Shown one piece after another: positions 6,908 to 46,516 of a stretch of DNA of 64,000 nucleotides. The stretch is from Polynucleobacter sp. es-MAR-4. Its GTDB lineage: Bacteria; Pseudomonadota; Gammaproteobacteria; Burkholderiales; Burkholderiaceae. The notes beneath the pieces are model-generated. The model was not told the origin of the DNA. It was given only the letters and a program-made list of their open reading frames with translations, and did no database searches. Numbering within the stretch: the stretch's first letter is position 1; each line of letters starts with the position of its first letter. The stretch is taken from positions 930,001-994,000 of the forward strand of contig NZ_JACVPF010000001.1 of NCBI RefSeq assembly GCF_018882055.1. The letters are read 5' to 3'. A program made the position numbers and the translations under genes.

Positions 6908-6928
6908 TACGGCTTAAAATAGCCGTAT
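6907..6928 (+). promoter_or_regulatory. Inverted repeat spanning the aroG start codon
   Basis: ATACGGCT at 6907-6914 and AGCCGTAT at 6921-6928 form a perfect 8-bp inverted repeat around TAAAAT. It includes the last base of the tldD stop and the first two bases of the aroG ATG at 6927. As RNA it could hide the start codon. Alternatively, TAAAAT at 6915-6920 could be a -10 element six bases before the ATG, making a leaderless transcript. The sequence cannot decide between these. Confidence 0.4.
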
Positions 6929-8051
6929 GAGCCAACAAAACACCAATCCCGCAAACTGGTACGCTGCCGTTGATAAAACGTCAGATACGGATGATCAACG
7001 CATTCATAACATTACTGTTCTGCCACCACCAGAGCATTTGATTCGCTTCTTTCCGATCTCAGGAACTCCAACCGAAGCCCTGATCAGCAAAACTCGTAAA
7101 AAGATTCGCGACATCATTCATGGAAAAGATGATCGCCTACTCGTCATCATCGGACCTTGCTCGATTCACGATCCCCGTGCAGCAGTAGAGTACTGCCAAC
7201 GACTGCTCGCAGAGCGCGATCGTTTTTCTGGTGAACTCGAAATTGTGATGCGCGTCTATTTTGAAAAACCACGCACAACTGTGGGTTGGAAGGGTTTAAT
7301 TAACGACCCATACTTAGACGAGAGCTATCGCATTGAAGAGGGTCTACGCATTGCTCGTCAAGTGTTGATGGAAATCAACCGTCTCGGCATGCCTGCGGGT
7401 AGCGAATTCTTGGACGTTATCTCTCCGCAATATATTGCCGACCTCATTTCTTGGGGCGCTATTGGAGCACGAACAACAGAAAGTCAAGTTCATCGCGAAC
7501 TCGCTTCAGGCCTCTCCGCACCAATCGGATTTAAGAACGGCACTGATGGCAATATCAAAATTGCTACCGATGCTATTCAAGCAGCCAGCCGCCCACACCA
7601 TTTCTTATCAGTACATAAGAATGGTCAAGTTTCTATCGTGGAAACTAAAGGCAACAAAGACTGTCACGTTATTTTGCGTGGCGGCAAAGAGCCTAACTAT
7701 GAAGCTCAATATGTACAGGCAGCCTGCTCGGAGCTAGAAGCAGCAAAGCTTCCAGCCAGCTTGATGGTTGACTTATCACATGCAAACTCCAGCAAAAAAC
7801 ATGAGCGTCAAATTGTGGTGGCGGAAAATATTGCCGAGCAAATTGAATCTGGCTCAAATCAAATTTTTGGTGTGATGATCGAGAGCCACTTGAATGATGG
7901 CGCTCAGAAGTTCTCACCTGGAAAAGATGATCCGAGCAAACTGGAGTATGGCAAAAGCATTACTGATGCCTGCATTAACTGGGAAGACTCAGTTAATGTA
8001 TTGCAACGCTTAGCTTTGGCTGTAAAGAACCGCAGAAAAGCAAAGAAATAA
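6927..8051 (+). CDS. aroG: 3-deoxy-7-phosphoheptulonate (DAHP) synthase, class I
   Basis: A 374-residue class I (AroF/G/H type) DAHP synthase that condenses phosphoenolpyruvate and erythrose 4-phosphate in the first step of the shikimate pathway. Recognisable blocks are LLVIIGPCSIHDPRAAVEYC, RVYFEKPRTTVGWKGLINDP, SPQYIADLISWGAIGARTTES and the metal-binding DLSHANSSKKHERQ near the C-terminus. The N-terminal extension typical of feedback-regulated enzymes is present, but which aromatic amino acid inhibits it cannot be told. It starts 20 bases after tldD inside an inverted repeat and is followed by a strong terminator. Confidence 0.93.
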   Translation: MSQQNTNPANWYAAVDKTSDTDDQRIHNITVLPPPEHLIRFFPISGTPTEALISKTRKKIRDIIHGKDDRLLVIIGPCSIHDPRAAVEYCQRLLAERDRFSGELEIVMRVYFEKPRTTVGWKGLINDPYLDESYRIEEGLRIARQVLMEINRLGMPAGSEFLDVISPQYIADLISWGAIGARTTESQVHRELASGLSAPIGFKNGTDGNIKIATDAIQAASRPHHFLSVHKNGQVSIVETKGNKDCHVILRGGKEPNYEAQYVQAACSELEAAKLPASLMVDLSHANSSKKHERQIVVAENIAEQIESGSNQIFGVMIESHLNDGAQKFSPGKDDPSKLEYGKSITDACINWEDSVNVLQRLALAVKNRRKAKK

Positions 8052-29051: not shown

Positions 29052-30419
29052 ATGTCAAACATAACAGCGATTTCCTATCTCATTTCATCGGTATTGTTCA
29101 TCCTCGCTTTGCGTGGACTGTCATCACCAACAACATCACGCCAAGGCAATACCTTCGGCATGATCGGCATGCTACTTGCCGTGATCACCACCTTTATGAT
29201 CCCCGACTTTAAGCCAGTCTTCTCATTGATTATTGGTGCGATTGTTGGTGGCGCCATCATTGGAACGCTTGCCGCTAAGCGCGTCCAGATGACCAAGATG
29301 CCAGAGCTCGTAGCGCTTATGCACTCCTTTGTTGGTTTATCAGCCGTGTTGATTGCGATTGCAGCGGTATACAACCCAGCTCATGACCATACCGGCGCGC
29401 AAAAGATTGAACTCTTTATCGGCGCATTTATCGGCGCAATTACCTTTACCGCCTCTGTCATCGCCTTCGGAAAACTATCCGGCAAGGTTAGTGGCAAGCC
29501 AGTAACTTTTGCTGGTCAACATTTACTCAATCTGATTCTTGCTGTTGGCATGGTTTCTGGTGGCGTGATGTACTTCATGACCGGCAGCCACGAAGCATTC
29601 CTAGTAATGTGTGCGATTGCTTTGGTATTGGGCGTGACTTTGATCATCCCAATCGGCGGTGCTGATATGCCAGTTGTTGTGTCTATGCTCAATAGCTACT
29701 CCGGCTGGGCAGCAGCAGGTATTGGTTTCACATTGAATAACCCAGTACTCATTATTGCTGGTGCTTGCGTAGGCTCCTCTGGTGCGATCTTGTCTTACAT
29801 CATGTGTAAGGCAATGAACCGCTCCATCTTGGCAGTATTGCTTGGCGGCTTTGGCGCTGAAGCTTCTGCTGGCGGCGCTGATGATGGTGGTCCAAAGAAC
29901 TACAAAACTGGCTCTCCAGAAGATGCAGCTTTTCTCATGGAGAATGCTGACACCGTGGTGATTGTTCCTGGTTACGGTTTAGCGGTTGCTCGTGCTCAGC
30001 ATGCTCTTAAAGAATTGACAGAGAAGTTAACTCATCATGGCGTGACCGTGAAGTATGCGATTCACCCAGTGGCAGGTCGTATGCCTGGTCACATGAACGT
30101 ACTCCTAGCTGAGGCTGAAGTTCCTTATGATCAAGTGTTTGAGATGGAAGACATCAACAGCGATTTTGGTCAGGCTGATGTGGTGTTAGTACTTGGCGCA
30201 AACGACGTTGTTAACCCAGCCGCTCGTACGCCAGGTAGCCCAATCTTTGGAATGCCAATTTTAGAAGCCTTTAAAGCTAAAACCATTATTGTGAACAAGC
30301 GTTCAATGGCGGCTGGTTATGCCGGCCTTGATAACGAACTCTTCTATATGGATAAAACCATGATGGTCTTCGGTGATGCGAAAAAAGTTGTTGAAGATAT
30401 GGTGAAGTCTGTAAGTTAA
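29052..30419 (+). CDS. pntB: NAD(P)+ transhydrogenase subunit beta (3' end is the attachment site)
   Basis: A 455-residue PntB with an N-terminal membrane domain of about nine spans and a C-terminal NADP(H)-binding domain containing VIVPGYGLAVARAQHALKEL, HPVAGRMPGHMNVLLAEA and VLVLGANDVVNPAARTPGSP. The last 54 bases (30366-30419) are repeated exactly at 44096-44149, so an element has integrated into the 3' end and the coding sequence is kept intact by the copy at the junction. The original downstream chromosome resumes at 44150. Confidence 0.96.
   Translation: MSNITAISYLISSVLFILALRGLSSPTTSRQGNTFGMIGMLLAVITTFMIPDFKPVFSLIIGAIVGGAIIGTLAAKRVQMTKMPELVALMHSFVGLSAVLIAIAAVYNPAHDHTGAQKIELFIGAFIGAITFTASVIAFGKLSGKVSGKPVTFAGQHLLNLILAVGMVSGGVMYFMTGSHEAFLVMCAIALVLGVTLIIPIGGADMPVVVSMLNSYSGWAAAGIGFTLNNPVLIIAGACVGSSGAILSYIMCKAMNRSILAVLLGGFGAEASAGGADDGGPKNYKTGSPEDAAFLMENADTVVIVPGYGLAVARAQHALKELTEKLTHHGVTVKYAIHPVAGRMPGHMNVLLAEAEVPYDQVFEMEDINSDFGQADVVLVLGANDVVNPAARTPGSPIFGMPILEAFKAKTIIVNKRSMAAGYAGLDNELFYMDKTMMVFGDAKKVVEDMVKSVS
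30366..30419. repeat. Left attachment repeat in pntB 3' end (54 bp, perfect)
   Basis: Starts GTCTTCGGTGATGCG and ends GTAAGTTAA, including the pntB stop codon. It is identical to 44096-44149, and the two copies diverge immediately outside these limits on both sides. It is read as the hybrid attachment site made by the adjacent integrase. Confidence 0.93.
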
Positions 30420-30548: not shown

Positions 30549-30566
30549 TGTCCAATTCCTGTCCAA
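30549..30566. repeat. Paired TGTCCAA motif, left end
   Basis: TGTCCAA at 30549-30555 and again at 30560-30566, 11 bases apart start to start, just before the integrase start. The same pair with the same 11-base phasing is at 43974-43991 near the right end. One-helical-turn spacing at both ends suggests integrase arm-type binding sites; this is inferred. Confidence 0.5.
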
Positions 30567-30579
30567 CTGGAGAGGAAAC

Positions 30580-31566
30580 ATGGCATCAATACGCAATCGT
30601 CAAGGCAAATGGCAAGCCCGAATTATCAGAAAAGGCTATGCACCAATCACCAAATCTTTTTTAGCTAAGCAAGATGCTGAACGGTGGGCAAGGCAAATTG
30701 AATCCGATATAGATAAGGGCAGCTACACCAATTCGGTATTCGCCGACAGAACGACGTTTAGCGAAGTTATACAGCGCTATATTCAGGAGGTCGTAAGCAA
30801 GGGTCGTGGCTATAAGGAACATTCCTACCGGCTTAAAGCGCTAGCAAAACGTCCCATAGCTCAACTACGCATGACTGCCCTCACCCCTTTAAAAGTAGCG
30901 GAGTATCGTGATGAGAGGGCAAAGGTTATCGCTCCAGCCACACTGATTCATGAACTCGCTTACTTTTCTGCCATCATCAACCATGCAAAGCGGGAATGGG
31001 GTATTAGCATCATCAATCCAATTCCGATGGTTAAAAAGCCCCCAATGCCTCAGGGGCGAAATCGAATTCTCAATGAAGAGGAGCTTAGTCGACTGTATAC
31101 AGCACTTACTCCCAGGGTAAAGAATGCGAACCACTGGATACTGCCCTTGACAAAATTTGCCTTGGAGAGCGCCATGAGACGAGGCGAAATACTGGGGCTA
31201 CGTTGGGAGGAGATCGATCTCGAAAAACGCATAGCCTTTATTCCACTCACTAAAAATGGTGAGTCACGCACAGTGCCACTCAGCACGGCTGCAGTTGAAA
31301 TACTGAAAACCCTGCCAAGAAATCTACATGGAGAAGTTTTTCCAGTAAATCGTACAGCTTTGTCAGCAGCAATAGAGAGAGCCAGGATAAAAGCGGAACT
31401 TAGTGATTTTCATTTCCACGACCTGAGACACATGGCCATAACACGACTTGCTGAAAAGCTCCCAAACCTCATTGAACTATCAGCCGTGTCTGGCCATAAG
31501 AGCCTTGCAATGCTTAAGCGCTACTATCATCCAAACCCCGAACTTCTCGCACAAAAGCTTGGGTAA
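30580..31566 (+). CDS. Tyrosine-type site-specific integrase
   Basis: A 328-residue phage-type integrase. The N-terminal part (MASIRNRQGKWQARIIRKGY) resembles an arm-binding domain, a SAM-like core-binding domain follows, and the catalytic domain has Arg200 (ESAMRRGEILGLRW), Lys225, His280-x-x-Arg283 (HFHDLRHMAITRL), His306 (SGHKSL) and the nucleophile Tyr315 (KRYYHP). It should catalyse integration at and excision from the pntB 3' end. A GGAG lies before the ATG. The position next to the repeat, transcribed into the element, is standard. Confidence 0.95.
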   Translation: MASIRNRQGKWQARIIRKGYAPITKSFLAKQDAERWARQIESDIDKGSYTNSVFADRTTFSEVIQRYIQEVVSKGRGYKEHSYRLKALAKRPIAQLRMTALTPLKVAEYRDERAKVIAPATLIHELAYFSAIINHAKREWGISIINPIPMVKKPPMPQGRNRILNEEELSRLYTALTPRVKNANHWILPLTKFALESAMRRGEILGLRWEEIDLEKRIAFIPLTKNGESRTVPLSTAAVEILKTLPRNLHGEVFPVNRTALSAAIERARIKAELSDFHFHDLRHMAITRLAEKLPNLIELSAVSGHKSLAMLKRYYHPNPELLAQKLG

Positions 31567-31838
31567 TTAATTCAATCAAAGGTGTGTATATTTTCATAGC
31601 ATAAGAAAGTTGAGCAATGTCTATTAATTTATGGTTGAATCTAGGGGTACAATGAAAATTGCATTGACCATCGAACGGGGCGGCTGTCCCAAAATGCAGA
31701 GCATAAACTAGCCAGCGGTAGTCGTTTGCCTTAGTCCAAACGGTAGCTTAAAAAAGATTGGTCTCCAACAGCGTTGGGGGGCTTGTCTTTTATAGCTTGA
31801 CCTCCAACTTTTAAAACTAGAAAGTTTTGGAGATTCAA
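31567..31838. other. Non-coding gap between integrase and replication gene
   Basis: 272 bases with no convincing gene. It holds a few partial inverted repeats, among them CCAACTTT near 31804 facing AAAGTTTTGG at 31821-31830. The right arm carries the GGAG that serves the next gene, so this structure could affect its translation. No clear promoter was identified. Confidence 0.4.
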
Positions 31839-33875
31839 GTGAACCAACAAATAAATGTATTAACACCAACCCCAAGCAAAATTCCGGAGCTCTTAAAAAA
31901 GCGGTCAAACTGGATTTGTTGGAAAAAAAGTGGTGCAAAACCAAATGGTAGGTATGGAAAATTACCCGCCAATATCAAGGGCACAGTAATTAATGCTCAC
32001 GATGTTAACCATCATGTTGATCTAGAGACCGCATACCAAAGCTACGACTCAAATAAGTTCCAACTCGCCGGAATTGCCATCGATCTTCCGACCAACCCAG
32101 GTATTTACGGTTATACCGATGATGGCGAGCCTTTGTACCTGATTGGTGGAGACATCGATGAGTGCATAACCATTAAAGACAGCAAACTGGTAATAAGCGA
32201 ACAAGCAAAGAGTGATTTAAAGGCGCTGTGTCAGCCATATTGGGAAATCTCACCCTCTGGCACTGGAATTAGATGGTTCGGCTTACATACAAGGCCACTT
32301 AAAGGTGGCAATAAAAATGGTCGTGAAATGTATTCGAGCGGTCGGTTCTTAACTGTCACCGGGAAGAGCAAAGGCGGCCAAATAACTACCCTACCATCTA
32401 ATATCGAAGCTCTGGAGCAAGAGTGGTTTAGATCAACCAAATCTGCAGACATTAATGGCGATCTACTGGCGCATCTTCAAAGAGAGTCATATCAAGAGCC
32501 AGAACTAATCAATGATGGTGAAGGACGTAATATTGGGATCCTAAAGCATGCCGGACACTTAAGAGCGCAGGGATTATCTCAAGACGAAATTGAAGAAGCG
32601 TGTCTGGCCTTTAATCACAAAAAGCTAAATCCTCCTTTAGAAGAATGGCAAGTATTAGATATTGCTAGACGCTACGCTGAAGAAAAATCGACCCCCTACA
32701 TAGTGGAACCAATTGACGCTGCACACACCACCAAGAAAGAGTTTGAGCTCAATTTAAATTCAGGGCTCATTAAGCTTGTTGCCTCATCACCTAAAAGACC
32801 ATTTATTGCTGGGATTGATGTTATTCCCCTTGGTACATACAGCGCACTAGCAGGCTGGGGTGGGGTTGGAAAGACTAACCTCATCATATCTCTAGCGACA
32901 CAAGCATCAATTGGTGGATCATTCGCAGACAGGGTATGCAAAGAAACGTGTGTACTCATGCTCGCCTGTGAAGATAGTGAAGCTGAGATTAATGCTCGAT
33001 TTTGCGCTGCTATCGAAAACCTTCCCAAGGAAAAGCAGGAGCAGGCGCTCAGAAACACTAGGGTATTTAGTCTGGTTGGTCAAGATGTGCATATGGTGAA
33101 GATGGTCGGAAGAAATGCCGAACCGACTGGAAAATCCATCGTGCTGATCAATGCGGTAAATGAGCTTAAACAGCAAACTGGTGTTGATAGGTGTCTTGTC
33201 ATCATTGATCATGCCCGGATGATTGCCAGCGTAGATTGGAATGACTCCGCTCAAGCAACTGTCTTTACAAGAGAGATGCAGCACATTGCTTCAGAGACTG
33301 GCGCAGGTTTAGTTGTTTTAACCCATACCAATAAAGCTTCAATGAAGGCTGATCACAATTCCAATCAAGGGGATGTCTCAGGCTCTACTGCAATTGTTGA
33401 TAACGCTCGTTGGGTTGCTTTAGTTCGCACCATGGGTGATGCAGACGCTAAATCTCTTGGGATCGAAGTAGAGGCAAGACAAAACTACGTTTCACTGGAA
33501 ATTATTAAGACTAACTATTGTGCAATGGGAAGAGTTGGTTGGTTTTTAAAACGCACTGTGGAGCATCACTCGGTATCAGTGCTCGAGCCTGTTGAGTTAG
33601 CTAAACCCACCCTATCAAAGCCAGGAGATAACGCTCTTGAAAAACGACTCATTGAATACCTGAAAAGTCATTCAGGCCTAACTATCAACAAGATCAAGGG
33701 ATTTGCAGGTACCAAAGGTGTATTTAAGGCCAGTGAAAAAGCAGTTATCTCTGCCATTCAAGAGTTGATTGACAAAGACATGGTCAAACTAGAAATACCT
33801 TCAGATGAGCAACGTAAAGAGTTGGGTTTGCCCAAAAATACTGCAGGAGTTCTGATTGTTTCGGAGGGGGTTTAA
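31839..33875 (+). CDS. Primase-helicase replication protein (PrimPol-like N-terminus, RepA-type ATPase)
   Basis: A 678-residue protein. The N-terminal about 200 residues look like a prophage/plasmid primase-polymerase domain (NWICWKKSGAKPNGRYGKLP, GGDIDEC acidic site, SGTGIRWFG). A PriCT-like helical linker follows (EGRNIGILKHAGHLRAQGLS). The C-terminal half is a RecA-like ATPase with Walker A GWGGVGKT at about 339-346, Walker B LVIIDHARM at about 457, and VVLTHTNK. A longer TTG start at 31827 exists, but GTG at 31839 has GGAG seven bases upstream and is preferred. Its role is probably replication of the excised element. Confidence 0.82.
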   Translation: MNQQINVLTPTPSKIPELLKKRSNWICWKKSGAKPNGRYGKLPANIKGTVINAHDVNHHVDLETAYQSYDSNKFQLAGIAIDLPTNPGIYGYTDDGEPLYLIGGDIDECITIKDSKLVISEQAKSDLKALCQPYWEISPSGTGIRWFGLHTRPLKGGNKNGREMYSSGRFLTVTGKSKGGQITTLPSNIEALEQEWFRSTKSADINGDLLAHLQRESYQEPELINDGEGRNIGILKHAGHLRAQGLSQDEIEEACLAFNHKKLNPPLEEWQVLDIARRYAEEKSTPYIVEPIDAAHTTKKEFELNLNSGLIKLVASSPKRPFIAGIDVIPLGTYSALAGWGGVGKTNLIISLATQASIGGSFADRVCKETCVLMLACEDSEAEINARFCAAIENLPKEKQEQALRNTRVFSLVGQDVHMVKMVGRNAEPTGKSIVLINAVNELKQQTGVDRCLVIIDHARMIASVDWNDSAQATVFTREMQHIASETGAGLVVLTHTNKASMKADHNSNQGDVSGSTAIVDNARWVALVRTMGDADAKSLGIEVEARQNYVSLEIIKTNYCAMGRVGWFLKRTVEHHSVSVLEPVELAKPTLSKPGDNALEKRLIEYLKSHSGLTINKIKGFAGTKGVFKASEKAVISAIQELIDKDMVKLEIPSDEQRKELGLPKNTAGVLIVSEGV

Positions 33876-36027: not shown

Positions 36028-36111
36028 GGGGGGTCGAAGTAAAGACATTAGCAAGACGAAAAGCGCTGGGTATTAGTAAACAAGACTTAACTTACATTGG
36101 GGACATTTAAG

Positions 36112-36441
36112 GTGAAAAATATATTCCTTATGACTGTTTTTATCTCAAGCATATCTCTCGCTCAAACAACCTATTACTCTGATCAATATGGCATGCCTCA
36201 GGGATCCGCAACACGGACAGGCAACACTACTTACTACTCGAACCAATATGGAATGCCCCAGGGAACGGCTACCCAGTCAGGAAATACAACTTACTACAGT
36301 AATCAATATGGGATGCCGCAAGGGACTGCCACACAGTCGGGGGGCACCACCTACTACAACAATCAATATGGGATGCCGCAAGGTTCAGCAACAACTATAG
36401 GGCCCGCCCCCATCCAGCCAATAAGGCCTTATGGAAGATAA
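36112..36441 (+). CDS. Exported Tyr-rich tandem-repeat protein
   Basis: GTG start at 36112 with GGGGA upstream gives 109 residues. Residues 1-18 (MKNIFLMTVFISSISLAQ) are a signal peptide. Four 20-residue repeats follow at 19-38, 39-58, 59-78 and 79-98, consensus TTYYSNQYGMPQGTATQSGN, then a Pro-rich end. The DNA repeat period is 60 bp. The mature protein has four YY pairs and four QYGMPQG motifs and no cysteine. Similar short YY/GxPxG repeats occur in proteobacterial envelope proteins, but no function is known to me. Confidence 0.7.
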   Translation: MKNIFLMTVFISSISLAQTTYYSDQYGMPQGSATRTGNTTYYSNQYGMPQGTATQSGNTTYYSNQYGMPQGTATQSGGTTYYNNQYGMPQGSATTIGPAPIQPIRPYGR

Positions 36442-37727: not shown

Positions 37728-38156
37728 ATGAAATTGATACCTACCTCCTTGCTTTCACTGTTACTTATCTTACCTCTGCCTACATATGCGCAAACCACTT
37801 CTCTGGCATGCAACCTTCCTAGTGGAAAGGAATGGGGAACACTAAAGATAGACTTAAAGCAAAAAACAATAATTGATAAGAATGTTCTTCAAAAGGCATC
37901 TGCTGACTATCTTGAGAGATGGAACGAGAAATATTATCGCGAAAAAGGCAAGGAGTATAAAACTCAACCATTTAACCCTGATAAAAGTGCCACCATATTT
38001 AAGATCACCAAAATTAATGACGAAACAATTTTTGGCGAGTCTCACTCATTAAGCTATAAATCAATCGAAATTAATAGGTACACCTTACAAATGAAGTATC
38101 CAGAAATGCCATCCGACGACATATTCCAATGCTCAAAAATAGAGAAAGCTTTTTAA
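37728..38156 (+). CDS. Small secreted protein, 142 aa
   Basis: ATG at 37728 is preferred over an upstream GTG at 37719. The signal peptide (MKLIPTSLLSLLLILPLPTYAQ) is obvious. The mature protein has two cysteines, one at each end (SLACNLPSG and IFQCSKIE), which may pair as a disulfide in the periplasm. It is abutted by the next gene without gap. Not recognised. Confidence 0.6.
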   Translation: MKLIPTSLLSLLLILPLPTYAQTTSLACNLPSGKEWGTLKIDLKQKTIIDKNVLQKASADYLERWNEKYYREKGKEYKTQPFNPDKSATIFKITKINDETIFGESHSLSYKSIEINRYTLQMKYPEMPSDDIFQCSKIEKAF

Positions 38157-38393
38157 ATGATTTACATCTACTTTTATTTAGCAATAGGAGTTATTGTTAC
38201 AGCAGCATCTTATATATCTTACGAGCATAAAGAAAAAGATATTTCCGAGGTTGTTCACGATAAATTACATGAGTTACGTGATGATGGTTCATTCTCATTT
38301 CAAAGTGCCAACATCCTGGGGCATCTATTCGCTTTCACTTTCAGCATACTTCTTTGGCCTACTTTAATCATTAAGAAAATTCTTTGTTACTAG
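38157..38393 (+). CDS. Small membrane protein, 78 aa
   Basis: ATG begins in the base after the previous stop. There are two hydrophobic segments, residues 1-20 (MIYIYFYLAIGVIVTAASYI) and about 54-74 (HLFAFTFSILLWPTLIIKKI), separated by a charged loop. Probably an inner-membrane hairpin. Not recognised. Confidence 0.55.
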   Translation: MIYIYFYLAIGVIVTAASYISYEHKEKDISEVVHDKLHELRDDGSFSFQSANILGHLFAFTFSILLWPTLIIKKILCY

Positions 38394-38571
38394 ATATTCG
38401 GATCGATGGCGGCTCTAGATTGAAGGCAAATAAGTATTTTGAAATCAGTAGACGGCTTTGCTGGCTTATCAGGGACTACCCTTAGAAATAAATTTTAAAC
38501 TTTGCTCACCCCAGATTAGTCTTTATGTTCTAAAATCCATAATGAAGTTACTTTTTTAATCGGGGTCACTT
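38394..38571 (+). promoter_or_regulatory. Intergenic region ahead of the Hxs operon
   Basis: 178 bases without a gene, the largest gap in this half of the element, so the likely site of the operon promoter. Candidate -10 hexamers are TAAAAT at about 38532 and CATAAT at about 38539, both without a good -35. A GGGG at about 38563 could serve as the ribosome-binding site. No operator is evident. Confidence 0.35.
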
Positions 38572-38859
38572 ATGTCTAAAAAATTCCTAGTTCCTGTAAG
38601 TGCGGCTATTGCAGCTTTGGCTGGCAATAATGCAAGTGCTACAGCGCCGACAGTGGGTAGTCAAGATTTGGCAAGCCGCCCAGTAAACACAACAAGTTCA
38701 AGCTTGATGAGTGGTAGTCCAATCCAATCCGTAGAGTATGTAAAAAATGGAGAGGCCCACCTCCTAATGATGAAGAAGATTGATGCTGGACAAGTACTCG
38801 CATATCACTCTTCGCATGCTTCTCACGCCTCACACAGCTCGCATAGATCTGGAAGATAA
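38572..38859 (+). CDS. hxsA: His-Xaa-Ser repeat precursor peptide (HxsA-like, short form)
   Basis: A 95-residue protein. The N-terminus (MSKKFLVPVSAAIAALAGNN) is basic then hydrophobic, and may be a leader or signal. The C-terminus, residues 79-93, is five perfect H-x-S triplets (HSS HAS HAS HSS HRS) followed by Gly-Arg, preceded by a Tyr. Position ahead of hxsD, hxsB and hxsC marks it as the substrate of the radical SAM pair. As I recall, reference HxsA proteins also contain a peptidoglycan-binding-like domain; this one does not, and such a domain is encoded separately at 41762. The modification made is not known. Confidence 0.82.
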   Translation: MSKKFLVPVSAAIAALAGNNASATAPTVGSQDLASRPVNTTSSSLMSGSPIQSVEYVKNGEAHLLMMKKIDAGQVLAYHSSHASHASHSSHRSGR

Positions 38860-38872
38860 ATGAAAGTCGTTA

Positions 38873-39172
38873 ATGGAATCAAGGTTGCTGTTTGATAAAA
38901 ATGTGTATTCCATTGAGGCCTTAAAAAAAGCTTCATATAGAAACATTGCAAACTATTCAGTAGTAATAAAAAAAGAAGGTGCTCAGTTGGAGTGCCTTTT
39001 TTCATTTCCAGCCAAAACCTCAGATGAAAAAGTCCTAGAATATTTGGATGATTTCAAAAAGGAAGTGCTTGATCAAGACTTGCGCGAAATCATCAAGCGA
39101 GAAACTGAAGGGGTTAGAAATCTAATTTTGTCTCATGCCTTTTCAAAGACAGGGCTTACTGGGGATGAGTAA
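38873..39172 (+). CDS. hxsD: His-Xaa-Ser system protein HxsD
   Basis: A 99-residue cytosolic protein. The C-terminal block VLDQDLREIIKRETEGVRNL followed by ILSHAFSKTGL matches my memory of the HxsD family motif (LLNDYxLRE and RNLIL.HAF). The N-terminus VYSIEALKKASYRNI also fits. Its small size and constant pairing with HxsB/HxsC suggest a role as substrate-recognition or adaptor protein, which is inference. It lies 13 bases after the precursor gene and overlaps hxsB by eight bases. Confidence 0.85.
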   Translation: MESRLLFDKNVYSIEALKKASYRNIANYSVVIKKEGAQLECLFSFPAKTSDEKVLEYLDDFKKEVLDQDLREIIKRETEGVRNLILSHAFSKTGLTGDE

Positions 39173-40622
39173 GTTTCAGAGTGTTGAGTTTTTCAAGAAA
39201 AAGAAAAATGAATATTCGCTGTTGCCATTTAGGTTCGAAAGACTGGATGATCAGAGGCGAGTTTTAACTAACTTAGCTGGTGAATATCTTGTTATTAATG
39301 AAGGTGAGTTAAAGGCTTTCGTTAATCATGCACTAGAAGAGCAATCAGATGCTTATATAAATCTGAGAGCGAAACATTTTTTGATTGACGAAAAGAGCGA
39401 GATGGCTAAAGAGCTCTTAGAAATCAAACTACGAACAAAATACTCAAATTTATCTGAATTCACTGCATTGCATATGTTCGTTGTTACGCTGAGGTGTGAA
39501 CATAGTTGCCCATATTGTCAGGTCTCAAGGCAATCAGATGACAAGCTGAAATTTGATATGACAGAAGAAATAGCTGATAAGGCTATTGATTTCGCACTTC
39601 GTTCGCCAGCTAGGGCTATAAAGATTGAGTTTCAAGGTGGTGAGCCGCTATTGAATTTCCCAATCATTCAATATGTTGTTGAGGAAGCCAATCGAAGGAA
39701 AAATGATAAGAACGTTAGTTATGTGATAGCTACGAATCTCGCCTTGATTGATAAAAACATATTGAAGTATTGCAAAGAGAAGTCTATTCAAATCTCTACT
39801 TCTTTGGATGGCCCAGAAGATCTGCATAATAATAATCGCCCTAGGCCTGGAAAGAATAGCTACGAGAAGGCTATTTCAGGCATCAAAATGGTCAGAGAAT
39901 ATTTAGGCGTTGATGCAGTTTCAGCTTTAATGACAACAACAAGATCTAGCTTGAATCGAGTTAAAGAAATTATTGATGAATATCTTGATCAAGACATGGA
40001 AGGGATCTTCCTTAGGCCTCTGTCGCCCTATGGTTTTGCATTAAAAACCAAATCATTTAAAGCGTATGGTGTTGAGGAATGGAATAAGTTCTATGAACAA
40101 GGGCTTGAATATATTATTGAACTCAATAAAAAAGGTGTGGAGTTCAAGGAATACTATACTGCCACCATTCTTGCCAAAATGTTTACCAGTCAAGATCCTG
40201 GTTATGTGGATTTAATGAGTCCTGCTGGCATTGGAATAAGCGCCATAATTTATAACTACGACGGAGTAGTTTATCCATCCGATGAAAGCAGAATGCTTGC
40301 TGAGATGGGCGATCACTCATTTAGGTTGGGGAATGTCTTAACCAATAGTTATGAAGAAATTTTTCTAAATGAGGCTTTGCTAGGACCAATCGAAGAGTCA
40401 TTTGCATATAGCGTACCCATGTGTAATGAGTGTGCGTTTGAGGATTATTGCGGTGCTGACCCAGTATTTCACCATGGCGTTCACAAGGATTTTGTCGCTA
40501 GAAAGCCTGAATCTCAGTTCTGCAATCGAAATATGACCATATTTATGTATCTGATTAACCGCATGGAATCAGATCAGTTTGTGAAAGAGCTTTTTATGAA
40601 ATGGGGGCAACCTCATGCTTAA
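39165..40622 (+). CDS. hxsB: His-Xaa-Ser system radical SAM maturase HxsB
   Basis: A 485-residue radical SAM enzyme; the ATG at 39165 was chosen because it overlaps the hxsD end by only eight bases. The SAM-binding 4Fe-4S site is C111-x3-C115-x2-C118 (RCEHSCPYCQ). QGGEPLLNFP and TSLDGP are classical radical SAM motifs. A C-terminal SPASM-like region has C420, C423, C429 and C453 (CNECAFEDYCGADP), probably an auxiliary cluster as in peptide-modifying family members. It should act on the H-x-S tail together with HxsC. Confidence 0.9.
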   Translation: MSKFQSVEFFKKKKNEYSLLPFRFERLDDQRRVLTNLAGEYLVINEGELKAFVNHALEEQSDAYINLRAKHFLIDEKSEMAKELLEIKLRTKYSNLSEFTALHMFVVTLRCEHSCPYCQVSRQSDDKLKFDMTEEIADKAIDFALRSPARAIKIEFQGGEPLLNFPIIQYVVEEANRRKNDKNVSYVIATNLALIDKNILKYCKEKSIQISTSLDGPEDLHNNNRPRPGKNSYEKAISGIKMVREYLGVDAVSALMTTTRSSLNRVKEIIDEYLDQDMEGIFLRPLSPYGFALKTKSFKAYGVEEWNKFYEQGLEYIIELNKKGVEFKEYYTATILAKMFTSQDPGYVDLMSPAGIGISAIIYNYDGVVYPSDESRMLAEMGDHSFRLGNVLTNSYEEIFLNEALLGPIEESFAYSVPMCNECAFEDYCGADPVFHHGVHKDFVARKPESQFCNRNMTIFMYLINRMESDQFVKELFMKWGQPHA

Positions 40623-41772
40623 GCTTCATGGAAATGCATTAAGTGCAAAGATAAAACTGGGTAACCATTCCCTTCTGACGGTTACTCGGACAAATTGCTC
40701 TGATGAAGCTAAAGGCTCATATGCCTATTTGATGGATGGACAAACCCCCGATTCTGGTTATGGCTGTTATTTGGATTTCGGCGGGCGATTGAATAATTTT
40801 TCGTCAATTGATGGATATTTAAATTTACCGCTTGAGATGGGCTATCTAGAAGAGGGTGACATTATTAGCGTGGAGTCATCTGGTCACACCAACGTAGTGT
40901 TTCGACGCAATTCCCCTCATAACACCATCTTACTGACCGAGCGATGCAATCATTATTGCCTTATGTGTTCGCAGCCACCAAAGGATGTTGATGATTCATG
41001 GCTGATGAATGAGGCGATGAAGCTATTAGATTTAATACCAAAGGAAACAGGAAATATTGGTTTTTCTGGTGGTGAGCCTACTTTGTATGGTGATGACTTC
41101 ATAAGCTTGATTAAAAAGGCCAAATCAAGCCTTCCAAATACCGCAATTGATGTATTGACTAACGGCAGAAGATTTAGCGATCCAAAATTTGCCAAAGCAT
41201 ATGCAGATATCAATCACCCAGACTGCTTATTGGGTATTCCGATTTATTCGGATGATCCAGTGAGGCACAACTATGTTGTGCAGGCTGATGGGGCATTTGA
41301 TGAAACCATTAAAGGCATATTGAACTTAAAAAAATATGGGCAAAAGGTTGAAATTCGGATAGTTATTCATAAGCAGACTATAGGACGCTTAGTTGAGACC
41401 TGCGAATTTATTGCTCGTAACTTATTGTTCGTTGATCATGTTGCACTAATGGGTCTTGAAATGATGGGGTTTACTAGGGCAAATCTGGATAGCTTGTGGA
41501 TTGACCCATTGGAATATAAAGATATATTAAGTAGAGCAGTGAAAGTTCTTAATGCTTACGGCATTAGAGCTTCGGTATATAACCATCAGTTATGTTTGGT
41601 TAATCCGGATGTTTTGCCAAATTATGTGAAGTCTATAAGTGACTGGAAAAATGAGTTTGTTGATGAGTGTGAGCCCTGCTTGAGAAAGTCTGAGTGTGGC
41701 GGGTTCTTTTCCTCATCAAAAATTCATAGATACAGCGACAACATTAGCCCTTTTACTAGTCATGCAAAGTAA
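40615..41772 (+). CDS. hxsC: His-Xaa-Ser system radical SAM maturase HxsC
   Basis: A 385-residue radical SAM enzyme with C111-x3-C115-x2-C118 (ERCNHYCLMCSQPP) and GFSGGEPTLYGDD. The N-terminal about 100 residues lack SAM motifs and may bind substrate. The C-terminus has C352, C355 and C361 (CEPCLRKSECGGFF), an incomplete auxiliary cluster site. The start overlaps hxsB by eight bases and the next gene starts inside its end, so the operon is tightly coupled. Assignment as HxsC rests on context and these motifs. Confidence 0.9.
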   Translation: MLKLHGNALSAKIKLGNHSLLTVTRTNCSDEAKGSYAYLMDGQTPDSGYGCYLDFGGRLNNFSSIDGYLNLPLEMGYLEEGDIISVESSGHTNVVFRRNSPHNTILLTERCNHYCLMCSQPPKDVDDSWLMNEAMKLLDLIPKETGNIGFSGGEPTLYGDDFISLIKKAKSSLPNTAIDVLTNGRRFSDPKFAKAYADINHPDCLLGIPIYSDDPVRHNYVVQADGAFDETIKGILNLKKYGQKVEIRIVIHKQTIGRLVETCEFIARNLLFVDHVALMGLEMMGFTRANLDSLWIDPLEYKDILSRAVKVLNAYGIRASVYNHQLCLVNPDVLPNYVKSISDWKNEFVDECEPCLRKSECGGFFSSSKIHRYSDNISPFTSHAK

Positions 41773-42163
41773 AGTTAGAAAATTAGTAACCTTTTTAACA
41801 ACGGCATTCATTGGGGTATCGGCTTACTCTTTGTATCAGATATTTCTTTTTGATAACCCAAGATATGCAGTTTCGGATGAGTCTGATCCTGAAAGAAATG
41901 AGCAGAGTACCCCAAGATCATTTGTCCTGCCCGCAACTCCCGCTATAGCCATTGAGCAAGAGCAAAGAGCTAAAGAGCTACGTGCTGGGCTGAGTAGTGA
42001 GAAATGTATCAGTAAGTTGCGAGATATGGGCTATCAAATTGATGACATGGACGCCTCATTTAATGCAACATATATCAGGGCAGTAATTGAGTATCAAAAA
42101 GCTAATAACTTGAAAGTTACTGGCGTTCCTGATGTCGAGACTAGGAAAAGGATGGGTTGTTAA
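41762..42163 (+). CDS. Membrane-anchored peptidoglycan-binding-like protein of the Hxs operon
   Basis: ATG at 41762 lies within the last 11 bases of hxsC and gives 133 residues. Residues 1-25 form an N-terminal anchor (VRKLVTFLTTAFIGVSAYSL). After a variable linker the C-terminal about 60 residues (CISKLRDMGYQIDDMDASFN, AVIEYQKANNLKVTGVPDVE) follow the peptidoglycan-binding domain 1 pattern, ending in Cys. A second Cys begins that domain, so a disulfide is possible. This is the domain I recall as fused to the H-x-S region in reference HxsA proteins, here on its own gene. Confidence 0.7.
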   Translation: MQSKVRKLVTFLTTAFIGVSAYSLYQIFLFDNPRYAVSDESDPERNEQSTPRSFVLPATPAIAIEQEQRAKELRAGLSSEKCISKLRDMGYQIDDMDASFNATYIRAVIEYQKANNLKVTGVPDVETRKRMGC

Positions 42164-42552
42164 TGAAATTTGACAAATATTTAATCGCGTTAAACGTTCT
42201 AGCATCAATTGCCTGTATTTCATTGGCACTCAAATATATTGCGGTACCTTATGCAGCCTCCGGTATCTACAAGGAAAGATATAAAGAACTGGTATTTGCT
42301 TGTGACAATGTCATGAGAGACCATTTAATAGCAAAAAATAAGGTAGTCAACGAAAAATCAGAGCAATCTATAAAGCAGCTCAAGGCTGCTGAACTTGGCC
42401 TATTAACTTGTGATGATTACGATAGGCTGCGAAAGAAAATGATTGATTTAGGAGTTTCCGAAGGTAGATTGTCAATGTACGGATTAGAGGCGATTGAAGA
42501 AAAGTCGGAGGATGTAAGAACTTTTGTGAGAACACATGAATTTAAATACTAA
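42163..42552 (+). CDS. Unknown anchored protein of the Hxs operon, 129 aa
   Basis: Start ATG overlaps the preceding stop by one base. It has an N-terminal membrane anchor (YLIALNVLASIACISLALKY) and then a charged helical domain, presumably periplasmic, with two cysteines (FACDNV and LLTCDDY). The MauG-like gene begins 17 bases before its end. Not recognised; its place in the operon suggests it acts on or with the modified peptide. Confidence 0.6.
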   Translation: MKFDKYLIALNVLASIACISLALKYIAVPYAASGIYKERYKELVFACDNVMRDHLIAKNKVVNEKSEQSIKQLKAAELGLLTCDDYDRLRKKMIDLGVSEGRLSMYGLEAIEEKSEDVRTFVRTHEFKY

Positions 42553-43786
42553 AACCTTACTTTTAAGTTTTTTCATAATTCATTGCAGTAATCTTGCTGT
42601 TGCTGTAACTGCTGAAGAAAAAATAGTCAAAGAACAAATTAAAGCTGCAGGTTTTGTTCCGGCCGCGGATTTATATCGGAACCCCGATGAATCACTGTTC
42701 GATCTCGGTAAGGTGTTCTTTGAAAGTAATAAAGGACTAAGTCTAAACGGCAATATTTCGTGCAGAACTTGTCATCAAGATAAATTTGGCTCAGCAGATG
42801 GAATTCCTAATGCTGCAGCAATTGGTGGTGGCGACGGAGCTACAAAAGTGGGTCCAGAGAGGTTGATGAATGGCGCAAAACAACTACCAAGGAATACTCT
42901 GGCTTTCTGGGGTAGGGGTGCAAAGGGGTTTGATGTTTTCTTTTGGGATGGTCGGGTAGATTTTTCCTCGTCAAAGAAGCTTACTCAGTTTGGCTCTAAA
43001 ATACCTTCAAATGATGCGCTTATTACTGCCGTTCACTTACCGGTTGTCGAAGTGCGAGAAATGCTAGACGAGGATGACTTTGTTAGAAAGCATAAGGTTG
43101 AGTCTGTAGAAAAATCCAAGGCGGTATATCAAGCAATTGCTAATAATTTAAGGTCCGTTGAATCCAAGGCAAGTCAGGACCTAGCAAATAGATTAAATAA
43201 AAAACCTCAAAATTTAGAGTATGTCGACTATGCAAGGGCAATAGCTTCCTTCATTAGAAGTGAATTTAGACTAAAGGAAACTAAGCTAGAGAGGGTTATG
43301 CGTGGTTCTGAGGGCTTTTCAGAGGCTGAATTAAAAGGGGCTCGTATTTTTTATGGGAAAGGCGCTTGTGTTACCTGTCATTCTGGCCCACATTTTTCAG
43401 ACTTTAGTTTTTATACCGTGCCATTTCCGCAATTGGGGTTTGGTAAAAATGGTTTTGGTGTTGATTACGGAAGATATAACACCACCTTTAACACTAAGGA
43501 CCTTTACAAGTTCAGAACAGCGCCTTTGTATAACGTTGAAAAGACTGCGCCATATGGACACTCAGGCTCTGTTAATACTTTAAATGAGGCAATAGTTGCC
43601 CACTACGACCCTTTGTCTCTAGTATCCGTGGATAAGCTCAATAGATTTGATCGTTATGAGCTTGCAAAGAGACTCGGTTATGCAGACAGCACTAGTCGAG
43701 TTGGGTACTTAACACCAGAAGAGGTTTCTCAGGTGGCAAGCTTTTTGAAAACCTTAAGCTTTGATAAAGACAATCTGAAAAATTAA
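42536..43786 (+). CDS. Hxs-associated MauG-like di-heme cytochrome c
   Basis: A 416-residue exported protein with a signal peptide (residues 1 to about 24, LLLSFFIIHCSNLAVAVTA). It has two c-type haem sites, C76-R-T-C-H80 and C278-V-T-C-H282, the spacing of the bacterial di-haem cytochrome c peroxidase/MauG family. Other family segments are LPRNTLAFWGRG, FFWDGR and TAPLYNVEKTAPYGHSGSV. MauG oxidises a partner protein's residues rather than detoxifying peroxide. I recall a MauG-like family named as Hxs-associated, which this fits. It probably oxidises the radical-SAM-modified product in the periplasm (inference). Confidence 0.85.
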   Translation: MNLNTKTLLLSFFIIHCSNLAVAVTAEEKIVKEQIKAAGFVPAADLYRNPDESLFDLGKVFFESNKGLSLNGNISCRTCHQDKFGSADGIPNAAAIGGGDGATKVGPERLMNGAKQLPRNTLAFWGRGAKGFDVFFWDGRVDFSSSKKLTQFGSKIPSNDALITAVHLPVVEVREMLDEDDFVRKHKVESVEKSKAVYQAIANNLRSVESKASQDLANRLNKKPQNLEYVDYARAIASFIRSEFRLKETKLERVMRGSEGFSEAELKGARIFYGKGACVTCHSGPHFSDFSFYTVPFPQLGFGKNGFGVDYGRYNTTFNTKDLYKFRTAPLYNVEKTAPYGHSGSVNTLNEAIVAHYDPLSLVSVDKLNRFDRYELAKRLGYADSTSRVGYLTPEEVSQVASFLKTLSFDKDNLKN

Positions 43787-44095
43787 GAAAATGCTGCAAC
43801 GTGTGTATGCGTCTTATTTTTACCAGTGCTCTATATGAGATGCCTAAACCTACCCCCCTAGCATGCGTTAAATGGTCCATCCCACCCTCCATCTAGCCCA
43901 CCTGCCCAAGGCATATATAAAGAACTCGCATTAATTAACTAAATTTCTATACAGGTCTGATATGGATTATGCTTGTCCAAATTCTGTCCAAGTCACAGCA
44001 TTAAATACGTTAATATTTAGTCCCAAGGAATTGAAAGATAATTTTTTTATTGCTGTAAGTTGTTGATTCTTATTACACTCGTAAAATATTGATAT
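43787..44095. other. Right end of the element, no gene
   Basis: 309 bases between the MauG-like gene and the right attachment repeat. It contains the paired TGTCCAA motif at 43974-43991, an AT-rich patch with TTAATTAA at about 43931, and TTTTTTT at about 44043. No hairpin terminator for the Hxs operon was found. This looks like an integrase-binding arm rather than coding DNA. Confidence 0.5.
43974..43991. repeat. Paired TGTCCAA motif, right end
   Basis: TGTCCAA at 43974-43980 and 43985-43991, with ATTC between, 11 bases apart. It mirrors in the same orientation the pair at 30549-30566 (TTCC between). Probable arm-type sites for the element integrase. Confidence 0.5.
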
Positions 44096-44149
44096 GTCTT
44101 CGGTGATGCGAAAAAAGTTGTTGAAGATATGGTGAAGTCTGTAAGTTAA
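44096..44149. repeat. Right attachment repeat (54 bp, perfect copy of pntB 3' end)
   Basis: Identical to 30366-30419 including the stop codon, but with no reading frame in front of it. The sequence to its right is therefore the chromosome that originally followed pntB. Confidence 0.93.
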
Positions 44150-44153
44150 CTGG

Positions 44154-44181
44154 TGCCAGCCTTACTCAGTAGGGCTTGGCA
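44154..44181. terminator. Probable original pntB terminator, now separated from pntB
   Basis: TGCCAGCCTTAC and GTAGGGCTTGGCA pair with one bulge and a G-T pair around a three-base loop. It begins five bases after the right repeat, so before integration it would have followed the pntB stop directly. There is no strong T run. It also lies downstream of the leftward TPR gene. Confidence 0.4.
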
Positions 44182-44218
44182 GCAGAAAAACTTAATGAAA
44201 TCTTGCTGTATGCCAGAC

Positions 44219-46516
44219 TTATGCCCCAATAGAGATATGGTCTGGCGGCAAATCTAACTGATATCGCTCATACATTCTCAAATACACTGCTTCAAGATTT
44301 TTAGTAAAGAGGGGGGTATCAAATAAAGGGGCCGTCAACAGATTGCTGGCCAATTTAAGTTTGATATCCGCCAATTTCTCAGGCTTTGTAGCCAGCTCTA
44401 TTGCCAAAGCTGCATATTCTTCCTCATTTGTAGTGATGAGCTCAGGCAAACCAATTGCATTTAACAAGCTGGCAGCAACCCGACTAGGGAAAGACTGGCC
44501 CATTAGGGTGAGGAGTGGTACTCCTGCCTTCAGAGAATCAACCGCTGTAGTATGAGCACCATAGGGGTATGTATCCAAAAATAGATCTGCCAATCTATAT
44601 CTTGCTAAATAGTCAGCCATTGAATCCACTCTTTGGGCAAAAATAATTCTGGATGACGCAATGTGACATTTTTCGAATTCGGCTTTGATATTTTCTTGAA
44701 AATCTTTGTTATTTTTCGAGATCCATAAAACACTATTTTCTACTGTCAGCAAAATTCTTGACCAAACATCTAGGACGTGTGGATTAAATTTGAAGTCATT
44801 ATTAAAGCAACAGAAAATAAATGCATCTTCTGGCAAACCACACTCCTCTCTTGTAAATACCCTAGAAGAAGGCAGTCTCATGGAATCATCAACCATGTAT
44901 GTATCAGGAAGATGTACTATTTTTTCAGCATAAAAATCCCGATGAGATTCAGGAATAATTGCTCTATCAGCCACGATATAGTCTATAAAGTCAGCCCCAA
45001 TTGTTCCCGGATAACCCAGCCAGTTAACTTGAATAGGCGCGGCCCTATAGGAGAAAATTCCCACTCTTGAGTTCTGCGTGAAGCCAGCTAAATCAATTGC
45101 AATATCAATACCCAGATCACGAGCTAGCCCAGCAATTTCTTGATCCGACAGATTATCAACCTCAATGAATTTATCAAATCCTTGCTTGAGACGTAAATTC
45201 ATCTCATCACCAACAGGAGCTTTTTGTAATGCAAAAGCGACTACCTCAAACCGAGATCGATCATGTATTTCAAAAAGTTCGGCAGTTAAAAAAGAAACGG
45301 GGTGATTACGAAAATCTGGCGAAAAATATGCAATCCGAATTTTCTCGTTTTTTCCATGCTTAGGAATCGGCTCAAGATCCAAGTTTGATAAAAATTGATT
45401 TTTGGCAAAAATATTAGCGGCTTGCCTATTCAATACAGGATCATCATTCAAAGATAGCAAATCAAAAGGTCTAATCGCTTTCTTATTTGCCAATATTTTT
45501 ATAAAAATATTTTCTAATATGCCTGCAAATCCTGACCAGCTGGCTATTTTCATTCTCAGATGAATCAAGTATCCATCCACCCAGTCTAGGTCGGGCACCA
45601 AGCTGAGGGCCTTTTGACAGCAAGTAATAGCTTCATCATAACGAGCAAGTGCATTTAAGGTCAGACCCTTATTCAGCCAACTCTCAGCCCTGTCAGAATT
45701 CAGGGCTAGGGCTTTATCATGCTGTGTTATTGCCTCATCAAACTGCTTTAGGTCATGCAAAGCATAGCCTTTACATGAATAGGCCTCTGCAAAGGCAGAA
45801 TCAAGACTAAGGGCATGATCATAATAAGCAATTGCCTCTTCAAAACGCTTCATTTTCTGAAGAGTATTGCCTTTGCTGGCATATGCTTTTACATATTCAG
45901 GCTTTAGGCCAAGGGCCTGATCATAATGGGCAATTGCCTCTTCAAAACGCTTTACCTCTTGAAGAGCATTGCCTTTATTAGACCAAGCCTCAGCATAGTT
46001 AGGCCTTAACTGTAGTGCCTGGTCATAATGAGTAAGAGCCTCTTCAAAACGCTTTACCTCTTGAAGAGCATTTCCCTTATTGGACCAAGCCTCGGCTGAG
46101 TTAGGCGTTAAAGTTATCGCCTGATCGTAATGAGTAATTGCCTCTTCAAAACGCTTGAGCTCCTGTAGAACATTACCTTTGTTAGACCAAGCCTCGGCAT
46201 ATTTTGGCTCTATCTTTATAGATTTATCATAAGCATCAAGAGCTTTTTCAAACTCCTTCAGCTCAAGATAAATATTACCTAGATTGCTCAAGGTTATTGG
46301 ATTCTTGGGCAGAGCCTTTAGAGAATCATTTGTATATTTCAAAGCCTCTGGATAGAGCCCTTTCTTCGCAGAAACAATTCCCAAGAGCCCCAAAACATGA
46401 GGATTTTTAGCTTCTAACTTGAGGGCTTGCTTTAAATATAATTCCGCTGATACTAAATTAGAATTCTCAAGGGATTCAATTGATTTGTGTAAAAGAAAAC
46501 CTATTTGTGGATTCAT
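44219..46516 (-). CDS. TPR repeat protein with GT41 (OGT/SPINDLY-like) glycosyltransferase domain
   Basis: A 765-residue cytosolic protein. Residues about 5-330 are about nine 34-residue TPR units, several nearly identical (AEAWSNKGNALQEVKRFEEA). Residues about 380-750 are a GT41-type glycosyltransferase with KIRIAYFSPDFRNHPVSFLT, APIQVNWLGYPGTIGADFIDY, FNNDFKFNPHVLDVWSRIL, DLFLDTYPYGAHTTAVDSL and GVPLLTLMGQSFPSRVAASL. Such enzymes transfer a sugar, usually GlcNAc, to proteins; the target here is unknown. It lies between the element and groEL, on the groEL strand. Confidence 0.9.
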   Translation of the reverse strand: MNPQIGFLLHKSIESLENSNLVSAELYLKQALKLEAKNPHVLGLLGIVSAKKGLYPEALKYTNDSLKALPKNPITLSNLGNIYLELKEFEKALDAYDKSIKIEPKYAEAWSNKGNVLQELKRFEEAITHYDQAITLTPNSAEAWSNKGNALQEVKRFEEALTHYDQALQLRPNYAEAWSNKGNALQEVKRFEEAIAHYDQALGLKPEYVKAYASKGNTLQKMKRFEEAIAYYDHALSLDSAFAEAYSCKGYALHDLKQFDEAITQHDKALALNSDRAESWLNKGLTLNALARYDEAITCCQKALSLVPDLDWVDGYLIHLRMKIASWSGFAGILENIFIKILANKKAIRPFDLLSLNDDPVLNRQAANIFAKNQFLSNLDLEPIPKHGKNEKIRIAYFSPDFRNHPVSFLTAELFEIHDRSRFEVVAFALQKAPVGDEMNLRLKQGFDKFIEVDNLSDQEIAGLARDLGIDIAIDLAGFTQNSRVGIFSYRAAPIQVNWLGYPGTIGADFIDYIVADRAIIPESHRDFYAEKIVHLPDTYMVDDSMRLPSSRVFTREECGLPEDAFIFCCFNNDFKFNPHVLDVWSRILLTVENSVLWISKNNKDFQENIKAEFEKCHIASSRIIFAQRVDSMADYLARYRLADLFLDTYPYGAHTTAVDSLKAGVPLLTLMGQSFPSRVAASLLNAIGLPELITTNEEEYAALAIELATKPEKLADIKLKLASNLLTAPLFDTPLFTKNLEAVYLRMYERYQLDLPPDHISIGA
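45829..46258. repeat. Near-identical 102-bp tandem repeats encoding TPRs
   Basis: The sequence GCCTCTTCAAAACGCTT recurs starting at 45834, 45936, 46038 and 46140, exactly 102 bases apart, each unit encoding one 34-residue TPR. The closeness at DNA level suggests recent duplication or gene conversion within the gene. Confidence 0.85.

Follow-up and report, generated by a model that had tools for sequence, protein, structure and literature searches.

An excerpt of one source (PMC9062424) credits Haft and Basu with the H-x-S (His-Xaa-Ser) motif of the Hxs systems and with its presumed maturases, HxsB and HxsC, and an excerpt of another (PMC8446631) lists hxsA-D among the genes of a genome from Pseudomonas aeruginosa. 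The searches made of openly licensed papers found no report on Hxs chemistry or purpose. Here we describe an Hxs operon at positions 38572-43786 of a 64,000-nucleotide stretch of the Polynucleobacter sp. es-MAR-4 genome (contig NZ_JACVPF010000001.1, positions 930,001 to 994,000), which as a whole is called the window. We regard this operon, with moderate confidence, as a mobile and chimeric peptide-modification operon, in which a module of a short-carrier lineage appears to be combined with an envelope module of long-HxsA type and integrated at pntB. Hxs systems as such are known; the split, chimeric form with a MauG-like protein seems to be new within what was searchable.

Partial likenesses exist to systems outside Hxs. 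According to the portion consulted of PMC11002830, triceptide radical S-adenosylmethionine (SAM) enzymes join an aromatic residue i to the C-beta of residue i+2, with precedents in links from His C2 to C-beta (HaaB, YhhB) and from Phe to the C-beta of Ser (MscB). The window shares with the triceptide systems (XncB, OscB, MscB, HaaB, YhhB) the arrangement of aromatic i and target i+2, here as a sequence pattern only, together with a SPASM-type radical SAM maturase; however, HxsB is only distantly related (74.1 bits against the YhhB model, of 445 required), and the window differs in having two radical SAM enzymes plus HxsD, as well as envelope features. The MbnP/MbnH pairs likewise set a di-haem MauG-like enzyme beside a partner protein (excerpt of PMC3621798), but the window's MauG-like protein scores 82 bits against the MbnH model TIGR04039, below the cut-off of 362.85, and its candidate substrate carries H-x-S, unlike the Trp-to-kynurenine site described for MopE.

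Among Hxs operons, the short-carrier HxsA2-D-B-C systems (for example those of Paraburkholderia plasmid pSYMBR3459, Pseudomonas and Mesorhizobium) resemble the window in their A2-D-B-C order and short, H-x-S-ended carrier, and in the three loci compared HxsB and HxsC are 57-59% and 48-55% identical to the window's; unlike the window, they yielded no tail of wall-binding anchor, TIGR03982 and MauG-like genes. That tail has its counterpart in three MauG-type operons, those of Tritonibacter (L102), Thioclava (L103) and genome G1123 (L140), where the order is hxsB, hxsC, long HxsA, TIGR03982, MauG and the MauG-like protein is 40-51% identical to the window's. These operons differ from the window in that the wall-binding protein is a single, full HxsA with both H-x-S repeats and a PF01471 wall-binding domain, in that no HxsD was detected, and in that HxsB and HxsC are 27-33% identical to the window's and belong to another tree group.

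The Hxs operon and its carrier

The operon consists of seven genes:

38572..38859, plus strand: HxsA2 carrier with five C-terminal H-x-S triplets (NF038296, 76.8 bits, cut-off 48)
38873..39172, plus strand: HxsD (TIGR03976, 64.9 bits, cut-off 50)
39165..40622, plus strand: HxsB, SPASM-type radical SAM maturase (TIGR03978, 614.9 bits, cut-off 370)
40615..41772, plus strand: HxsC, second radical SAM maturase (TIGR03977, 401.3 bits, cut-off 267.9)
41762..42163, plus strand: wall-binding anchor of 133 amino acids, HxsA-type linker plus PF01471 domain (35.1-35.6 bits, cut-off 23)
42157..42552, plus strand: TIGR03982 Hxs-associated protein (102.3 bits, cut-off 40)
42536..43786, plus strand: MauG-like di-haem protein with two CxxCH motifs (TIGR03981, 329.4 bits, cut-off 340)

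Families were assigned with NCBIfam profiles and their curated cut-offs, and with Pfam for the wall-binding domain. The seven open reading frames (ORFs), close-packed or overlapping on one strand, are laid out as a sequence-only reading of this DNA had described, and the complete Hxs core that it proposed is upheld by the curated models: HxsA2, HxsD, HxsB, HxsC and also the TIGR03982 protein exceed their cut-offs. Among the Hxs profiles that it named as a check, those for the two radical SAM proteins and HxsD (TIGR03978, TIGR03977 and TIGR03976) matched as expected, while TIGR03981 stayed below its cut-off and TIGR03979 had no match in the fifth protein at E 0.01; its view of the fifth protein as peptidoglycan-binding-like agrees with the PF01471 match. 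TIGR03981 is by far the best family for the MauG-like protein, whose gene adjoins that for TIGR03982. The MauG model TIGR03791 gave 58.1 bits (cut-off 443.85), and in a PDB search by sequence cytochrome c peroxidases rank ahead of MauG.

HxsA2 is 95 amino acids long and begins with a signal-like segment; this call was made by eye, as were all signal peptides and membrane segments of the operon, that of the anchor included. Its tail reads HSS HAS HAS HSS HRS and then G-R, such that the five triplets expected at the C-terminus are present but are followed by two further residues. The triplets are encoded with mixed codons, which indicates that it is as protein sequence that the repeat is maintained, and this codon usage, together with tandem H-x-S arrays in 60 of 62 other Hxs loci (two myxobacterial loci lack one), argues that the tail is not a product of chance. 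The comparison set of 62 loci comprises 24 from genome contigs, 18 from family and phylum searches, 17 from plasmid or phage records and the three MauG-type loci. Carriers are short in 34 of them, with the array at most 15 residues from the C-terminus (16 of these loci are from Pseudomonas, and the counts are not independent), and long in 26, with 108-175 residues after the array. PF01471 was present in all seven long HxsAs scanned and in neither of two short carriers, and is absent from the window's HxsA2. Across 61 arrays, counting that of the window, x is in most cases S, R, A, Y or T, x being the only position free to vary, as H and S were fixed by the search pattern.

By eye, HxsB probably starts at 39165 (the ORF as listed begins at 39135), and the anchor start is best placed at the ATG at 41762, giving an 11-base overlap with hxsC. 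Numbered from 39165, the HxsB cysteines invariant in 16 aligned copies are C111, C115 and C118 of the radical SAM motif plus C420, C423, C429 and C453. As to a possible sixth haem ligand, the four aligned MauG-like copies have in common a His after TAPYxHSG; the window's adjacent Tyr is not common to the four.

Maturation and envelope modules

Tree positions and identities suggest that hxsA2-hxsD-hxsB-hxsC, of the short-carrier lineage, were joined to an anchor/TIGR03982/MauG tail of another lineage. Trees were built from 63 HxsB and 62 HxsC proteins. The window's HxsB falls in a 31-row set (30 short-carrier rows plus the window, support 98/96) and its HxsC in a 22-row set (21 plus the window, 100/98), with L102, L103 and L140 in a separate 7-row long-carrier group supported at 100/100 in both trees. 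HxsB of the window is 59% identical to that of Mesorhizobium (L067), its best match, and 29, 31 and 27% identical to those of L140, L102 and L103; HxsC is 56% identical to that of L031 (the best, from the tree), 55% to those of L024 and L086, and 33, 27 and 30% to those of the same three MauG-type loci. The MauG-like protein, by comparison, is 51, 41 and 40% identical to its counterparts in L140, L102 and L103. Between L140 and Tritonibacter, identity is 46% in HxsB and 46% in MauG. It is because HxsB and HxsC side with the short-carrier loci, and MauG with L140, that the operon looks chimeric.

Homologues of the anchor, TIGR03982 and MauG-like proteins turned up in none of the 59 loci not of MauG type in an iterated search with the window's proteins (several of these loci end at contig ends), so that the sequence-only reading, which grouped a MauG-like partner with HxsA/B/C/D, is not supported as stated: among these loci MauG is not a usual partner. 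The 34 other short-carrier loci manage without such a tail, and this, with the sub-threshold score of the MauG-like protein, would fit a relic or bystander tail that leaves untouched the H-x-S product of a self-sufficient A2-D-B-C set. We consider this improbable, as all three genes of the tail have open reading frames that overlap each other, and they retain their features in all four aligned copies, namely the two CxxCH motifs of the MauG-like protein and the Cys and HExxY-type end of the TIGR03982 protein.

The H-x-S carrier tail and the wall anchor appear to be separate proteins in this operon. Whereas an HxsA combines H-x-S repeats with a wall-binding domain, the anchor (41762-42163) has the domain alone; it contains no His and does not match TIGR03979 at E 0.01. 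The stretch RNEQSTPRSFVLPATPAI of the anchor can be aligned with RNDESTPPNSVLPSSPAI in the L140 HxsA, located after the H-x-S array of that protein, and a similar run occurs in Thioclava. This linker scores 60 (z 9.3) against L140 and 54 (z 8.0) against L103, with 0 of 500 shuffles in each case, and at most 32 against the other 24 long HxsAs; when the whole anchor is ranked against all 26, L103 comes first (z 12.2) and L140 second (z 11.7). From the linker matches to L140 and L103, the identical slot in the operon and the lack of His, we take the anchor to be, most likely, an HxsA of MauG type that lacks the H-x-S array; HxsA2 would supply the array in trans. Either deletion of the array or replacement of the front of the gene could have produced it.

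Several observations weigh against a chimera of this kind. The MauG-like protein narrowly misses its own family cut-off; the tree tool warns that long branches meet and that the letter make-up of the window's HxsB is unusual; and base composition, tried as a marker of the join, does not differ between the modules (GC content at third codon positions 34-38% for A2-D-B-C, 33-34% for the tail). The linker stretch was chosen after the alignment had been seen, and the HxsA of Tritonibacter, also of MauG type, reaches only 32 with it (z 2.2, 23 of 500 shuffles). In the whole-protein ranking, the non-MauG loci L094 and L081 stand third and fourth (z 10.5 and 8.9) and Tritonibacter 13th (z 3.8). Finally, there are only three MauG-type operons beside the window, and a short-carrier lineage with MauG could be undersampled.

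This last point leads to an account without any chimera, in which short-carrier operons with anchor, TIGR03982 and MauG form an old, thinly sampled class, the His-free anchor is a normal part of it, and the mechanism is otherwise the same. We rate it as possible though doubtful. Four MauG-type operons in hand, the window's included, the absence of a compositional break between modules and gene overlaps like those of a settled operon all sit well with it. It is harder to reconcile with an anchor linker that matches long MauG-type HxsAs, and therefore descends from such a protein, with the strong disagreement between the HxsB/HxsC identities and the MauG identities, and with the failure to find the tail in any of the 59 loci; 33 of the 34 short-carrier loci among these are from Pseudomonadota, from cyanobacteria or without taxon.

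Further variation was seen among the long-carrier loci. No HxsD was detected in L082-L085, as in L102, L103 and L140. The hxsB of Thioclava L103 is shortened (7178-7963) and annotated as a 261-amino-acid hypothetical protein, and in L140 an 89-amino-acid ORF without an NCBIfam match at E 0.01 precedes hxsB. Hymenobacter L092 encodes (6818-7579) a carrier that has a wall-binding domain and two arrays with ten H-x-S matches in all, and this gene lies before hxsD, as in short-carrier operons.

Candidate chemistry of the H-x-S tail

For the chimeric operon we propose a pathway in which HxsA2 would be made with a Sec-type signal and its C-terminal H-x-S triplets would be modified in the cytosol by HxsB (aided by HxsD) and HxsC. 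The most plausible modification is a link between His(i) and the side chain of the Ser at i+2, of the kind that triceptide-forming radical SAM enzymes make. The modified HxsA2 would then be exported, and in the periplasm the MauG-like enzyme, with the TIGR03982 protein, would oxidise the tail or its anchor. The separate wall-binding protein would hold the complex at the wall, with tail and anchor acting in trans, and the product would be an envelope-bound, imidazole-rich tail, probably metal-binding or redox-active. A bolder version, which seems rather unlikely, has the MauG-like enzyme oxidatively couple or co-activate the separate tail and anchor in the periplasm, with a transferable wall module of anchor, TIGR03982 and MauG that could be plugged into different Hxs maturation modules.

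A His-to-Ser cross-link is our leading guess, with Ser oxidation second, because H-x-S fits the i/i+2 pattern of the triceptides. The evidence on HxsB also points elsewhere. Its structural model (mean predicted local distance difference test score, pLDDT, 76.6) has its nearest folds among radical SAM enzymes that mature sulfatases or form thioethers (4k39, Z 29.2, root-mean-square deviation (rmsd) 3.2, 338 residues aligned; 5wgg, Z 27.8, rmsd 3.2, 334 aligned), and its sequence matches several radical SAM families far under their cut-offs; the cross-link would thus be one candidate among radical SAM chemistries, and the bond type is a guess. By sequence, CteB is the best PDB match of HxsB, and HxsC has none at E 0.001.

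In the model of HxsB, the N-terminal strands and helices follow an order that would allow a recognition (RRE) domain, but the fold matches mainly cover residues 96-472, which makes such a domain a guess. HxsD, modelled with a mean pLDDT of 90.3, has a strand-helix-strand-strand-helix, ferredoxin-like fold. It was considered as a PqqD-like recognition domain and rejected as such: the best Foldseek match is Pcc1 (E 0.011), the best structural match (Z 8.3, rmsd 2.6, 68 aligned) lies among unrelated proteins, and the fold says nothing on function.

As to the role of the product, MauG-like enzymes are partners of exported copper proteins in the excerpt of PMC3621798, and copper binding by noursin needs a His cross-link according to part of PMC10206099. 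By analogy, these two precedents suggest that at the wall the product binds metal or takes part in redox reactions.

The element at pntB and the spread of Hxs

The operon lies on an inserted element, whose other features are the following:

30366..30419, plus strand: left end repeat, attL-like, pntB 3' end including the stop codon (perfect 54-base direct repeat of 44096-44149)
30549..30566, plus strand: TGTCCAA twice, 11 bases apart, a possible arm site for the integrase (spotted by eye)
30580..31566, plus strand: tyrosine integrase (PF00589, 104.5 bits; phrog_1)
31827..33875, plus strand: primase/helicase-like replication protein of the element (AAA_25, DnaB_C, PriCT_1; phrog_1829 DNA primase)
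43974..43991, plus strand: TGTCCAA twice, 11 bases apart, a possible arm site for the integrase (spotted by eye)
44096..44149, plus strand: right end repeat, attR-like (perfect 54-base match to 30366-30419)

The element measures 13.7 kb, its perfect 54-bp end repeats being spaced 13,730 bases apart, and with an integrase and a target duplicated at both ends it has the make-up of an integrative element. The integrase adjoins the left repeat and is followed by the primase/helicase-like gene; the Hxs operon sits at the opposite, right end and stops about 310 bases short of the repeat. Where an integrase-bounded element had been proposed, there is indeed an insertion with two att-like ends, and it carries one integrase rather than two. 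The paired TGTCCAA motifs inside each end are the sole such pairs among the six plus-strand copies in the window and may be integrase arm sites.

The pntB region was fetched from 12 relatives of the genus. In eight, the stretch from pntB to groEL has no integrase or Hxs match and spans 0.3-5.1 kb, as against 16 kb in the window. Two others, G003 and G006, hold different elements at this site, each with a related integrase (63.6% DNA identity over 992 bases in one; 72% and 67% over two segments in the other) and with the pntB end present twice, which marks the pntB 3' end as a reused integration site. In the remaining two, contigs break at the site (G001) or stop soon after pntB (G009). By eye, the G003 element has a lipoprotein-like ORF, and that of G006 carbonic-anhydrase-like and recombinase-like ORFs.

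Within the window's element, 36097-36441 encodes a small, exported-looking protein built from four repeats of 20 residues around QYGMPQG; the 60-nt DNA units are 70-73% alike to the reference, and neither Pfam nor PHROG gave a match. Just beyond the right repeat, 44219-46516 is a gene of 39.8% GC for a TPR plus family-41 glycosyltransferase (OGT-like) protein, without a DNA match at the pntB site of the relatives fetched. A promoter and terminator scan of 38150-44230 gave no excess over shuffled sequence (10 against a mean of 18.0, and 4 against 4.7), and searches of the window found no Rfam match and no tRNA.

In the survey of related genomes that the sequence-only reading had called for, HxsB scored above cut-off in one of 101 genomes of the genus, the window's own. 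Counting the window's genome in each, the figures were five of 299 for the family and 14 of 398 for the phylum. TIGR03982 was found in one of 398 phylum genomes (again the window's own), one of 289 genomes of the class of G527 and two of 72,556 plasmid records, and a query with the Tritonibacter protein finds the same two records; TIGR03981 exceeded its cut-off in no genome among 300 from the order, a set that contains the window's own. One TIGR03981 candidate (G813/L105, 231.8 bits) was left out of the counts, as its 19 kb yielded no HxsB, and a MauG search of plasmids returned 66 records, Phaeobacter and other cytochrome c peroxidase hits among them, of which the one read has no Hxs gene nearby.

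Hxs is widespread on mobile DNA, with 332 of 72,556 plasmid records (308 from Klebsiella) and two of 50,697 phage records. Near-identical HxsB proteins occur on Paraburkholderia and Cupriavidus plasmids and in two genomes of the family (G377, G143). The Klebsiella plasmid Hxs is of long-HxsA type in the one record read (L065), and the Leptospira phage record KF114877 (L064) has a short-carrier hxsA-D-B-C operon. On chromosomes, an Hxs-related operon was seen in 153 of 5426 E. coli genomes, at identities from 60% to >99%. Among viral contigs, eight stretches fit a pattern, and none encodes an HxsB relative.

Such repeated carriage on plasmids and phages, with the reuse of the integration site, might also be expected if the cell released the H-x-S product to act like a bacteriocin or in phage defence, with the operon as competition or defence cargo of the element. 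This strikes us as improbable: NCBIfam and Pfam scans of the operon show no apparent protease, dedicated exporter or immunity gene, the wall-binding domain in all seven long HxsAs scanned indicates retention, and in a search for defence systems with PADLOC the only hits were weak cross-matches to viperin by the two radical SAM proteins.

Read as a chimera, the operon seems to split, by natural recombination, what other operons fuse. This suggests two independent modules, H-x-S maturation by A2-D-B-C and the wall/MauG part, and a MauG part that is tied to the wall-binding domain and not to the H-x-S repeats. The small carrier, with 95 amino acids and five triplets, is suited to mass spectrometry, and Hxs is here the cargo of an element whose insertion site is reused.

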